Assembly (NCBI GenBank): GCA_025056965.1
Contig: JANWVF010000036.1
Span: 1-64,000 of the forward strand
Direction: 5' to 3'
From: Thermoflexales bacterium
GTDB lineage: Bacteria > Chloroflexota > Anaerolineae > J036 > Brachytrichaceae
DNA length: 64,000 bases
Part shown: positions 1,797 to 37,628 of the stretch, one piece after another
How the letters are laid out: each line of letters opens with the position of its first letter
Position numbering within the stretch: position 1 is the stretch's first letter
Program-made: the position numbers and the translations under genes
The notes under the pieces: model-generated
Database searches by the model: none
What the model saw: only the letters and a program-made list of their open reading frames with translations
Told to the model about the DNA's origin: nothing

Positions 1797-2465
1797 CTAA
1801 TCTATGCGGTAGCCTACGCCGCGCACCGTTTGTAGCCGCTCGGGGCGAGACGGGTCTTTCTCGATCTTTTCGCGCAGCCAACGCACGTGCACATCTACGG
1901 TGCGCACGTCGCCGTCGAAGTCATAGCCCCACACCTGGGTGATGAGGAACTCGCGCGAGAGCACGGCGCCCTTGTTGCGCATGAGCGTGGCGAGCAACTC
2001 GAATTCCTTATGGCTGAGCTTGATCTCTTTGTCACCCAGAAAGACTCTCCGCGAGACCGGATCGAGCTGCACGTCGCCGGCGCGCAGCACGGTGTCCATG
2101 CGCTTGGGCGCGCGCCGCAACGCAGCACGAATGCGCGCAGTCAGCTCAGGCAAGCTGAAGGGCTTCACCACGTAGTCGTCGGCGCCGTTGTCCAAGCCGA
2201 TGACGCGGTCTATCTCGCCGGCGCGCGCCGTTAGCAGGATGATGGCCATATCCGACTCGCGCCGCAGGATGCGACAAAGCGATAGACCATCCAGGCCGGG
2301 CAGCATTACATCCAAAACACAGATGTCGGGTTGTTCGCGTCGCGCAATCTCCAAGCCCTCATCTCCGCTGGTAGCGGTGATGACCGTATAGCCTTCACTC
2401 TCCAGATGCTTAGCGAGCAAATCGAGCAGGATCGTTTCATCCTCGACTATCAGAACCTTTGGCAT
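1797..2465 (-). CDS. OmpR/PhoB-family response regulator
   Basis: 222-residue two-component regulator. The N-terminal receiver has the acidic pair VEDE (8-10), the phosphoacceptor D52 in LDVMLPG, T79 and the conserved lysine K101 in KPF. The C-terminal winged helix (about 125-222) ends with the typical DVHVRWLREKIE and RGVGYRID segments. It lies downstream of phoU on the same strand, and a Pho-box-like promoter is nearby, so a PhoB/PhoP role in phosphate starvation is likely. No histidine kinase is in the window. A strong hairpin separates it from phoU. Confidence 0.92.
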   Translation of the reverse strand: MPKVLIVEDETILLDLLAKHLESEGYTVITATSGDEGLEIARREQPDICVLDVMLPGLDGLSLCRILRRESDMAIILLTARAGEIDRVIGLDNGADDYVVKPFSLPELTARIRAALRRAPKRMDTVLRAGDVQLDPVSRRVFLGDKEIKLSHKEFELLATLMRNKGAVLSREFLITQVWGYDFDGDVRTVDVHVRWLREKIEKDPSRPERLQTVRGVGYRID

Positions 2466-2529: not shown

Positions 2530-3213
2530 TCACGGGGTGCGGGGCGGCTTGTAATCCCCCAGCTCCGCGGTCGCGGCAAAGATCACTCGTTCGCAGAGGT
2601 TAGTCGCTCGATCGGCGATGCGTTCCAGGCTGTGCGCAACCCAGAGCAGATAAACTGCCTGCGCGATGGTCTTTGAATCTTGCATCATGAAGGTCAACAA
2701 CTCGCGCAGGATTTGTACGTAGAGGTCATCTACTTCTTGGTCGCGCGCTGCTACGCGCTTTGCCGCCTCTGCGTCCATCTCGATGAATGCATCCAGCGCC
2801 TCGTGGATCATTCCGCAGGCGATCTCCTGCATGCGCGGGACGTCAATGAGGGGCTTGATCAGCGGCTCATCCCCAATACGGATCGCGATCGAAGCGATGC
2901 TGCTCGCGTGATCCCCAATGCGCTCGAGCTCACCCGCCATGTGAATAGCAGCGAGGATGTAGCGCAGGTCCTTAGCCGCCGGCTGCTGAGTCGCAATCGT
3001 GCGCACACACTCAGACTCAACGCGGTAGCGCAAGGCATTGATTTGTTGGTCGGACTCGATGATTTGATGGGCAAGCGAGACGTTGCGCTCCTTTAGCGCA
3101 CGGACGGCTCTGGCAACTTGTTCTCCGACTAGGCTGCCCATGCGAAGAACGTCATTGCGAATTTCGTCTATGTTGTGATCCAGCAGAGTGCGGACTGAGG
3201 GAGAACTGGCCAT
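2530..3213 (-). CDS. phoU: Phosphate transport system regulator PhoU
   Basis: 227-residue all-helical PhoU protein. Two three-helix-bundle repeats carry the family's metal-binding E/D-x-x-x-D patterns, seen in ERIGDHASSIA (first half) and ERIADRATNLCE (second half). PhoU modulates PhoR kinase activity and Pst phosphate uptake. It is transcribed toward the PhoB-type regulator. No pst genes are in the window. The upstream region 3214-3330 is AT-rich and contains a Pho-box-like array, so autoregulation is plausible. Confidence 0.93.
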   Translation of the reverse strand: MASSPSVRTLLDHNIDEIRNDVLRMGSLVGEQVARAVRALKERNVSLAHQIIESDQQINALRYRVESECVRTIATQQPAAKDLRYILAAIHMAGELERIGDHASSIASIAIRIGDEPLIKPLIDVPRMQEIACGMIHEALDAFIEMDAEAAKRVAARDQEVDDLYVQILRELLTFMMQDSKTIAQAVYLLWVAHSLERIADRATNLCERVIFAATAELGDYKPPRTP

Positions 3214-3299
3214 TTCTGAGCGTTGATATAAGTGCTTACATTTAAGCTGAGTTTAAGATATTGATAAGAATGGATGAAAACTGAGGAGTAAAAGTTGAC

Positions 3300-3341
3300 T
3301 TAACTTTCCGTTCATACACACTTCACACATCGGCGTATATT
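3300..3341 (+). promoter_or_regulatory. Pho-box-like promoter (three 11-bp-spaced repeats plus -10)
   Basis: Direct repeats TTAACT (3300-3305), TTCATA (3311-3316) and TTCACA (3322-3327) recur every 11 bp, and TATATT (3336-3341) follows 8 bp later. This is the geometry of PhoB/PhoP-activated promoters, where the Pho box replaces the -35 element. It points rightward at the small gene starting at 3364 and lies upstream of phoU on the other strand. No known box was compared by computation. Confidence 0.65.
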
Positions 3342-3363
3342 CAAGAACAGGAGTATAAGCGTA

Positions 3364-3654
3364 GTGGGTATTCCACCGCGTACGCCTAATAAAACAGGAG
3401 GCCTGAAAGCCAAAGATATTATGAACAGCCAGCTACTAGACGAAACAATTGCCTACATCAGAAGAGAGCTAACTAACATTCATCATGACTTGGCTTGGGC
3501 AGATGGTATACAAGCCGAACTGTTCCGCCTTCGACAAGTTCGCTTACTGGCTGAACTCGATCGTCTGGAAGCGATTCGCCGGACGACAGCGACACCAGTC
3601 GCAATGCGCGCTTCCACTTCTACGAATCAATCGGCCGCCGGCACGGCTGGATAA
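3364..3654 (+). CDS. Small hypothetical protein, putative Pho-regulon member
   Basis: 96 residues if started at GTG 3364, which has AGGAG ten bases upstream; 77 residues from ATG 3421, which has no well-placed SD. The centre (DETIAYIRRELTNIHH, then EAELFRL-type segments) is predicted helical with Leu/Arg-rich amphipathic stretches, and the tail is Ser/Thr/Ala-rich and probably disordered. No signal peptide or known domain is visible. The Pho-box-like promoter directly upstream suggests induction by phosphate limitation. Function unknown. Confidence 0.5.
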   Translation: MGIPPRTPNKTGGLKAKDIMNSQLLDETIAYIRRELTNIHHDLAWADGIQAELFRLRQVRLLAELDRLEAIRRTTATPVAMRASTSTNQSAAGTAG

Positions 3655-3699: not shown

Positions 3700-3771
3700 T
3701 GCCCCTACGCAGATTCGAACTGCGATCTACGGCTCCGGAGGCCGGCGCTCTATCCATTGAGCTATAGGGGC
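3700..3771 (-). tRNA. tRNA-Arg (anticodon CCG)
   Basis: A complete cloverleaf can be folded: acceptor GCCCCTA/TAGGGGC, D-arm GCTC/GAGC, anticodon loop CTCCGGA with CCG at positions 34-36, T-arm CGCAG-TTCGAAT-CTGCG, discriminator A at 3700. One mismatch lies at the top of the anticodon stem. CCA is not encoded. CCG reads CGG arginine codons. Confidence 0.95.
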
Positions 3772-35432: not shown

Positions 35433-35915
35433 ATGAACGCTGTTGCCGCCAGTGAATCATTTGCCATCACGTCGGCCGGATTGCTCGACCTATGGGCGAT
35501 TTGGCGCGTGGGGCGCGCTGCGTTCGGCAGCGATGCCTATGACATGCTCACGCTGCTCGGCACGATGCTCACGCCGCGCATTGTGTGTCTGAAGGCAACA
35601 TCCAATCGGCGCGTGATCGGCTTCGTCGCCAGCGAGATCAATGCTCGCGAGGGATGTGGTTGGATCGTCATGATCGCCGTGCATCCCGATTCACAAGGGC
35701 GCGGCATTGGCACGGCGCTGTTGCATGCAGCGGAATGCGCGCTCGGCGCGGAGCGGATCCGGCTGACCGTGCGGCGCAGCAACGTGCGCGCCATCGGGCT
35801 ATACGAGCGTTGTGGTTATGTCTGGGTGAATACCTTTCGCCGATACTACCATGACGGTGAAGACGGCTTGGTGATGGAAAAGCAGCTAGGCCACGCGCGA
35901 AACGGAAGATCGTGA
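35433..35915 (+). CDS. GNAT family N-acetyltransferase (RimI-like)
   Basis: 160 residues. The acetyl-CoA loop HPDSQGRGIGTALL matches the GNAT motif A (Q/R-x-x-G-x-G/A), and GLYERCGYVWVNTFRRYY matches the C-terminal motif B of RimI-type enzymes. It acetylates an amine; the target is unknown. It lies 60 bp after cbs on the same strand and may be read through from it. Its last 30 bp overlap the convergent STAND regulator gene. Confidence 0.85.
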   Translation: MNAVAASESFAITSAGLLDLWAIWRVGRAAFGSDAYDMLTLLGTMLTPRIVCLKATSNRRVIGFVASEINAREGCGWIVMIAVHPDSQGRGIGTALLHAAECALGAERIRLTVRRSNVRAIGLYERCGYVWVNTFRRYYHDGEDGLVMEKQLGHARNGRS

Positions 35916-37370
35916 CGGCTGCTTCTTGCGCTCACTTTTGGTAGTCGTGGCGCGCGGCTGCGTTTGTTGCGGAGACGCGTGTTGCGGAGACGCGAACGGC
36001 AGATAGGCGAGATAGCGCTGATATACCGTATCGAATTCGCCGGCCTCGACCAGCTTCTCATGCGCATATTGTCGAATTGTATTGGACAAGCTGTAGTGCG
36101 GCTGCGCCCCGCGTTCGTCCACGATCACCAACGACTTGTTCACCAGGTTCGTGAGTAGGTCGAGCACATCTTCTCGACGCAACACCACCGATGCCTCTGC
36201 TTCATTCTCCGGCTGCCAGGCGCACACGGCTTCGGCCAATTCCAACGTCCAGTCGGCCGGGAAAATGGAGAGGCGGCGCAGCATTGCGCGTTCAGCCTCG
36301 GAAAGCAAATCGTAGCTCCAATCTATCATCGTGCGCAGCGTTTGCTGTTTGGGCGGCGCCAATCGGTTGCCGCCGGTGAGCAGGCCGAAGCGGTCGTCCA
36401 GTCGCGCCGCGATCTGCGCGAGCGAAAGCACTCGCAGTCGCGCCGCCGCAAGCTCGATGGCCAACGGTAAGCCATCGAGCTGCTGACACACCTGCACGAG
36501 TAGTGCTTGGTCATCAGGAGCGAGCGTGAAATCCGGGCGGACGGCTTTCGCCCGCTCAACGAACAGCTGCATCGCCTCGTCGCAGCGCATCGGCGGCACC
36601 TGCCAAATCACCTCGCCGGGCACATTCAACGGCTCGCGACTGGTAGCAAGCACAGTCAGGTTCGGGCACATTTGCACCAAACGAATGGCCAGGGTTGCGC
36701 ACGCAGCAATTAGGTGCTCGCACGTGTCCAGCACGATCATCGCACGACCGTCCAACAAACGGTCGCGTAGCGATTCAACGGTGACCGGATCGGGCACTGC
36801 CATGCCGATTGCAGCCGCTACGGCGCTTGGCACCTGCGCGCCATCCTGAACCGATGCCAGCGGCACAATCCATACGCCGTCGGGATAGAGCGGCAGGACC
36901 TCAGAAGCAACTTGCACAGCCAGGCGCGTCTTGCCTACGCCACCCGGACCGGTTAGCGTCAACAGGCGTGTCCCACTAAGCAACTGCTTGATCTCGGCAA
37001 TCTCCTCAGCGCGGCCGACGAAGCTGGTCAGCTGGGTGCGCAAGTTAGTCGGCGGTGCGTTCTTGATGGACGATGCGCCAGCTCGATGGGAGTAGCGCAT
37101 TCCGCGCGCCGCTTCGGCCAGCCGAATCAGCTGCTGCGCCGCCTCGGGATCGTCCTTCAGCCCCAGGGCTTCGACGAATTGGGCGCTAACCACAGCCGGG
37201 TCGGGCATGCGCTGATTATTCTCTAGTCGCGCGATGTGCGCTTCAGAATAACCGACGGCAGTGCCCAGCTCTCGCTGAGTCAACCGAGCGCGGCGGCGCA
37301 GATATCGTAGATATTCGCCGAACGTGGTGAGCAGGGCAGGGGACGGTGCTTCCGTCATGCGTGTTGGCAT
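35886..37370 (-). CDS. XRE-type HTH / NB-ARC (STAND) ATPase regulator
   Basis: 494 residues from ATG 37370 (ATG 37358 is also possible). An N-terminal Cro/CI HTH (about 12-65: LTQRELGTAVGYSEAHIARLE) is followed by a STAND ATPase with P-loop GPGGVGKT, Walker B MIVLDTCEHL and the LPLAIELAAARL helix. Relatives generally continue with TPR or other sensor repeats; this one ends soon after the winged-helix part with a Lys/Ser/Gln-rich tail. It looks like a signal-switch regulator missing its sensor domain. An in-frame 15-bp duplication lies in the tail. Confidence 0.82.
   Translation of the reverse strand: MPTRMTEAPSPALLTTFGEYLRYLRRRARLTQRELGTAVGYSEAHIARLENNQRMPDPAVVSAQFVEALGLKDDPEAAQQLIRLAEAARGMRYSHRAGASSIKNAPPTNLRTQLTSFVGRAEEIAEIKQLLSGTRLLTLTGPGGVGKTRLAVQVASEVLPLYPDGVWIVPLASVQDGAQVPSAVAAAIGMAVPDPVTVESLRDRLLDGRAMIVLDTCEHLIAACATLAIRLVQMCPNLTVLATSREPLNVPGEVIWQVPPMRCDEAMQLFVERAKAVRPDFTLAPDDQALLVQVCQQLDGLPLAIELAAARLRVLSLAQIAARLDDRFGLLTGGNRLAPPKQQTLRTMIDWSYDLLSEAERAMLRRLSIFPADWTLELAEAVCAWQPENEAEASVVLRREDVLDLLTNLVNKSLVIVDERGAQPHYSLSNTIRQYAHEKLVEAGEFDTVYQRYLAYLPFASPQHASPQQTQPRATTTKSERKKQPSRSSVSRVA
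35965..35994. repeat. 15-bp tandem duplication, in frame
   Basis: Two perfect copies of a 15-bp unit (35965-35979 and 35980-35994) give the repeated residues ASPQ in the C-terminal tail of the STAND regulator. Confidence 0.8.
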
Positions 37371-37628
37371 GGTGAACGAAGCATTGCTTGTTCTACATTC
37401 TACTGCCACCCCGTGAAGATTCTGTGAATCTCCCCTTTTAGAGAATCGCACTGCTCTTTGATTGTCAAGATTTAAGATGCCATCATCAGCTTATGTCATC
37501 CGCGATGACAACCCACAAATCTGCGTTACACTCGCATTTATTGAGAAGATACTTGGGGTATGCACAACTCTGGCTCTCAGGATATACTAACAGTCCGATA
37601 TATCGAGTGCTGTCGAGAGGAGTCTGGG

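Follow-up and report, generated by a model that had tools for sequence, protein, structure and literature searches.

PhoB-type regulators bind arrays of 11-bp repeats head to tail and activate transcription. Published Pho boxes consist of at least two 11-nt direct repeats that are bound head to tail (PMC4415409), and the box of the cyanobacterial regulator SphR is composed of three or more CTTAACCT repeats separated by 3-bp linkers (PMC1906773). In mycobacteria the phosphate regulator is RegX3 (PMC4415409). Small proteins can also be part of the response, as in E. coli, where the 8 kDa Pho-regulon protein YtfK acts on SpoT (PMC6917717). Our literature search on Pho boxes in Chloroflexi and on phosphate starvation in Roseilinea returned nothing specific.

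We analysed a stretch of 64,000 nucleotides (the window) from a MAG of the Chloroflexota that lies near Candidatus Roseilinea, in which the intergenic region between phoU and a small open frame has a GC content of 35%, compared with 63% for the window. We interpret positions 3214-3420, with a probability of roughly 0.85, as a divergent control region for phosphate starvation in which two Pho boxes face outward; the reading includes a PhoB-like binder and an adaptor-like small protein.

Architecture of the control region

The features of the locus and the evidence for them are as follows.

3300-3332, plus strand: Pho box toward the small gene, three 11-bp units (sequence, genus column conservation, genome-wide rarity)
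3336-3341, plus strand: -10 element TATATT (sequence, TAnnnT offset in relatives)
3421-3654, plus strand: small gene of 77 codons, unnamed family (homologs, dN/dS, predicted two-helix hairpin)
3235-3267, minus strand: second Pho box, toward phoU, units TTATC at 3267, TTAAA at 3256 and TTAAA at 3245 (genus alignment, step scan)
3225-3230, minus strand: TATATC as the -10 for phoU, its offset from the start of the final unit being 15 bases
2530-3213, minus strand: phoU (TIGR02135, 216 bits, above the cut-off of 130; PF01895)
1797-2465, minus strand: OmpR/PhoB-type response regulator (Response_reg and Trans_reg_C)

Toward the small gene the unit cores TTAACT (3300-3305), TTCATA (3311-3316) and TTCACA (3322-3327) follow each other at exact 11-bp steps, and TATATT begins 8 bp after TTCACA, all bases being exactly as a first-pass annotation of this DNA had read them. 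The three head-to-tail direct repeats starting at 3300, 3311 and 3322 stand against the two that a Pho box needs at the least, and TATATT has the form and place of a TAnnnT -10 element, expected some 10 bp beyond the last unit; its offset, counted from the start of that unit, is 14 bases (15 in most relatives). Aligned across the genus, unit cores and -10 are conserved against a variable remainder, and the TATA of the phoU-side -10 is invariant. The location had also been proposed to allow bidirectional control. Both directions are indeed served, but by two separate outward-facing boxes and not by a single shared one.

The response regulator and the identity of the binder

The 1797-2465 product contains a receiver domain and an OmpR-type winged helix (PF00072 and PF00486, above cut-off). 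Its score with the curated PhoB model (TIGR02154) was 233 bits, below the cut-off of 296 bits, while the YycF and MtrA models scored slightly higher than PhoB, also below cut-off; its best solved relative is RegX3, and we call it PhoB-like by genomic context only. The regulator gene starts 64 bp after phoU, with which it is probably co-transcribed, and because this gap places it behind the phoU-side box, it is probably autoregulated. Its place downstream of phoU is kept in all loci of the genus and of genus g3 with enough sequence. No PhoR kinase gene was found adjacent to the phoU-regulator locus, the best candidate pieces being at contig ends (C126 and C2).

We infer that the 1797-2465 product binds the boxes. 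The alternative that survives best accepts the Pho boxes as true but assigns them to another regulator of the OmpR family. Such regulators usually number several per genome, the 1797-2465 product matches YycF and MtrA as well as it does PhoB, and a kinase is not adjacent. Nevertheless, we consider another binder unlikely, since the gene lies downstream of phoU behind a Pho box in a position that is kept in the genus and in g3 loci. Furthermore, in family f21 a relative of the small gene stands beside a PhoB-like regulator, whose family-model profile is the same as that of the 1797-2465 product, and a kinase with PnpS and PhoR among its best models.

The small gene and its neighbours

The small gene had been described as a 96-codon gene. 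The open frame from GTG 3364 exists, but conservation of the protein begins only at ATG 3421, which is probably the start and yields 77 residues; GTG 3364, which has a plausible AGGAG Shine-Dalgarno sequence, is a less likely but possible start. Homologs were present in each of the eight genus-mates sampled and, over the family as a whole, in 19 of 27 relatives, and the dN/dS of about 0.01-0.12 identifies the frame as a real protein-coding gene. In three genus-mates (L014, L015, L016) only 8-10 bases separate the -10 from the ATG, which makes a leaderless mRNA probable in them; in the window the distance is about 80 bases.

That the gene has no recognisable family was borne out by the profile searches. 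The 3421-3654 product had no match in Pfam or NCBIfam and none of significance in PHROGs, and the PDB sequence and fold searches gave no significant match either, the fold search returning generic helical hairpins. Matches to EAD9, CCDC90-like and DUF2968 (best E 0.004-0.0075) were taken as coiled-coil noise. AlphaFold predicts a helical hairpin of helices 2-26 and 30-57, with pLDDT mostly above 90, followed by a disordered tail. The Rfam search of the DNA returned tRNA only; a tRNA-Arg (CCG) at window positions 3700-3771 (minus strand) is convergent with the small gene, and several relatives also have a tRNA downstream of it.

The small gene adjoins phoU in genus 1, in genus g3 and in G014. 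In g7 it adjoins a CYTH-CHAD gene, a gene type linked to polyphosphate. In family f10 the relative lies directly before pstS-pstC, where most copies have a weak box or one reduced to one or two units, and in family f21, where it stands beside the PhoB-like regulator and the kinase, the copy in L179 is also found before pstS, with the box TTAACCCCGGC TTCAAGCCAGT TTCATGAAAAA and the -10 TATAAC. In genera g6 and g8 it lies away from any phosphate gene, with a box of 14/15 at g6 and a weaker one at g8. Relatives beside phoU, pstS, a PhoB-like regulator or CYTH-CHAD thus link the small gene to phosphate across three Anaerolineae families. In several f10 genomes (L171, L178, L180-L183) the small protein also has a second paralog, encoded next to a glycosyltransferase gene, with neither box nor phosphate context.

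These neighbourhoods bear on a second alternative, in which phoU-phoB alone is served by the box and the small gene just happens to lie next to it. Phosphate control is most readily expected of phoU-phoB, which shares one intergenic region with the small gene in genus 1 of f1. However, each of the two outward boxes has its own -10 at the right spacing, and the box accompanies the small gene even without an adjacent phoU (L021, L025, L027, L028) and in another family (L179), which makes a passive neighbour highly improbable.

Recurrence of the array and chance controls

We scored arrays as three TT[AC]A[CT] words at 11-bp steps, with a maximum of 15. The small-gene promoter reached 15/15, a score absent from 3000 dinucleotide shuffles of the intergenic region, of which 0.4% scored 14. 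The scores of the 55 upstream regions in the window were 15 for the small gene, 13 for phoU and 8-11 for the remaining 53. Over the whole 3.13 Mb genome the pattern with one mismatch allowed had 6 matches, compared with 0 for the reversed-pattern control; as the pattern was derived from the small-gene site, the informative part is which other sites match, and one of the other five is the pstB-pstS gap of a pst operon, directly upstream of pstS. In the pst operon at L030 1343-7399 (G000:C32), pstB occurs twice, in first and in fifth place, and there is another phoU, which shares 56% identity with that of the window.

For the step scan we used 22 pstS and 21 small-gene loci of the same class, nearly all from the same bacterial family. 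Of the steps from 7 to 17 bp, 11 bp alone was enriched, upstream of both pstS and the small gene. At this step 14 of the 22 pstS loci and 13 of the 21 small-gene loci scored at least 13/15, compared with 0.03 and 0.15 expected from shuffles, the loci being related and their counts therefore not independent events. In the phoU direction, 9 of 11 loci scored at least 13/15 at the 11-bp step. Several pstS promoters have four units (e.g. L068, L075, L067). The -10 element was similarly constrained: over the boxed promoters of both sets, TAnnnT stood at offset 15 in 21 and at any other offset in at most three, and an offset of 14-15 was found in 11 of 18 small-gene and 13 of 15 pstS promoters with a box. 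The geometry of a PhoB/PhoP-type promoter, proposed from the window only, hence recurs both in its 11-bp step and in its TAnnnT spacing at pstS and in relatives.

A two-unit pattern combined with the -10 had 28 matches in eight genus genomes, compared with one for the reversed control. The matches include the small gene in seven genomes, phosphonate-like substrate-binding-protein genes in two and a Ugp-like operon in four. In NCBIfam the two substrate-binding proteins are matched best by models of 2-aminoethylphosphonate binding proteins (E 1e-60 and 8e-39, short of the curated cut-offs), and the UgpA/UgpE/UgpB-like operon by Ugp models, likewise short of their cut-offs. The motif search suggested by the first-pass annotation thus detected array and spacing at pstS in the genome itself and in the family, and at Ugp-like and phosphonate-like genes in genus-mates.

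The last alternative, that the repeats are chance in a promoter region where the low GC content makes TT- and TA-rich words commoner than elsewhere in the window, is refuted by the shuffle, wrong-step, reversed-pattern and whole-window controls together with the conservation across genera, and we give it practically no weight.

Matches outside phosphate genes

The genome-wide results rest on pattern searches, and some matches have no obvious phosphate gene (an XRE/NB-ARC regulator, a GT2 gene) or lie inside coding sequence. At window positions 37397-37428 (minus strand) two TTCAC units 11 bp apart are accompanied by TAGAAT at Pho-type distance, upstream of an HTH/NB-ARC regulator gene (approximately 35886-37370), and the same gene is so preceded in six genus-mates. 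In five genus genomes a family-2 glycosyltransferase gene has a three-unit array upstream (L052 5695, minus strand, G000:C89:43694; L111, L116, L118, L120), with no clear -10 at the usual spacing; the array might serve lipid remodelling when phosphate is short.

In addition, a perfect triple TTCAC repeat (L051 6683-6709, minus strand, G000:C82; L103, L110), conserved in five genomes, is located between a hybrid histidine kinase gene and the operon of an ABC sugar-type transporter, and only 13 bp separate it from the ATG of the kinase. It was rejected as a Pho site because, although conserved, it has no -10 at the right distance, and a different regulator may bind it. Conserved pattern matches that genus-mates have at TCCACAAATCTTTCACAACGCGTTCAC and TTCATSCKCTGTTAACKCGAYCTTCTC lie within coding frames or where these begin, and a set of two-unit matches (set Z) lies inside a glycosyltransferase-like frame; none of them was counted as a Pho site. 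The g7 CYTH-CHAD genes divergent from the small gene showed no box of their own upstream, nor did the G006 kinase gene.

Proposed regulation and significance

When phosphate is scarce, a PhoB-like regulator, most likely the 1797-2465 product, would be phosphorylated by a PhoR-type kinase encoded elsewhere and would bind head to tail on the 11-bp units, replacing the -35 element and placing RNA polymerase at the -10 box. From the phoU-side box this would raise the expression of phoU and phoB, providing autoregulation and damping, and from the other box that of the 77-residue two-helix protein. Predicted to be made together with phosphate-uptake genes and found beside phosphate-type neighbours, this protein may act inside the cell as a small adaptor or modulator in phosphate signalling or in the handling of polyphosphate, a role suggested by its size, fold and company. 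We tentatively propose, as a possibility and by analogy, that it is a new Chloroflexota component of phosphate signalling, a starvation-induced adaptor that would tune the response in the manner of YtfK with SpoT. Its candidate partners would then be PhoU, the PhoB-like regulator, the kinase of the latter, or an enzyme of polyphosphate or (p)ppGpp metabolism.

For Thermoflexales-type Chloroflexota, the analysis defines a Pho box and supplies an initial set of candidate Pho-regulon genes. Moreover, a small protein kept in three bacterial families gains a testable condition, phosphate starvation, and its genomic company suggests PhoU, the PhoB-like regulator, Pst and CYTH-CHAD as partners.

Comparison with known systems

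The small protein resembles YtfK in being very small and, by prediction, in belonging to the Pho regulon. The analogy is functional only, as the two have no sequence-family match and YtfK was reported to be specific to gamma-proteobacteria (PMC6917717). Like the PhoB promoters of E. coli, the promoter has 11-nt units arranged head to tail and, roughly 10 bp further on, a -10 of the TAN3T type (PMC4415409, PMC1906773), whereas the core is CTGTCAT there and TTNAC(T/A) here. The SphR box agrees with it in the 11-bp period, in a unit that is almost identical (CTTAAC or CTTCAC), in having at least three units and in its pst-type targets; in contrast to it, the array described here comes from a different phylum, has more variable units (TTCAC, TTTAC) and has a putative binder. 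The small-protein family is undescribed, and the promoter that precedes it belongs to the known class of Pho boxes.
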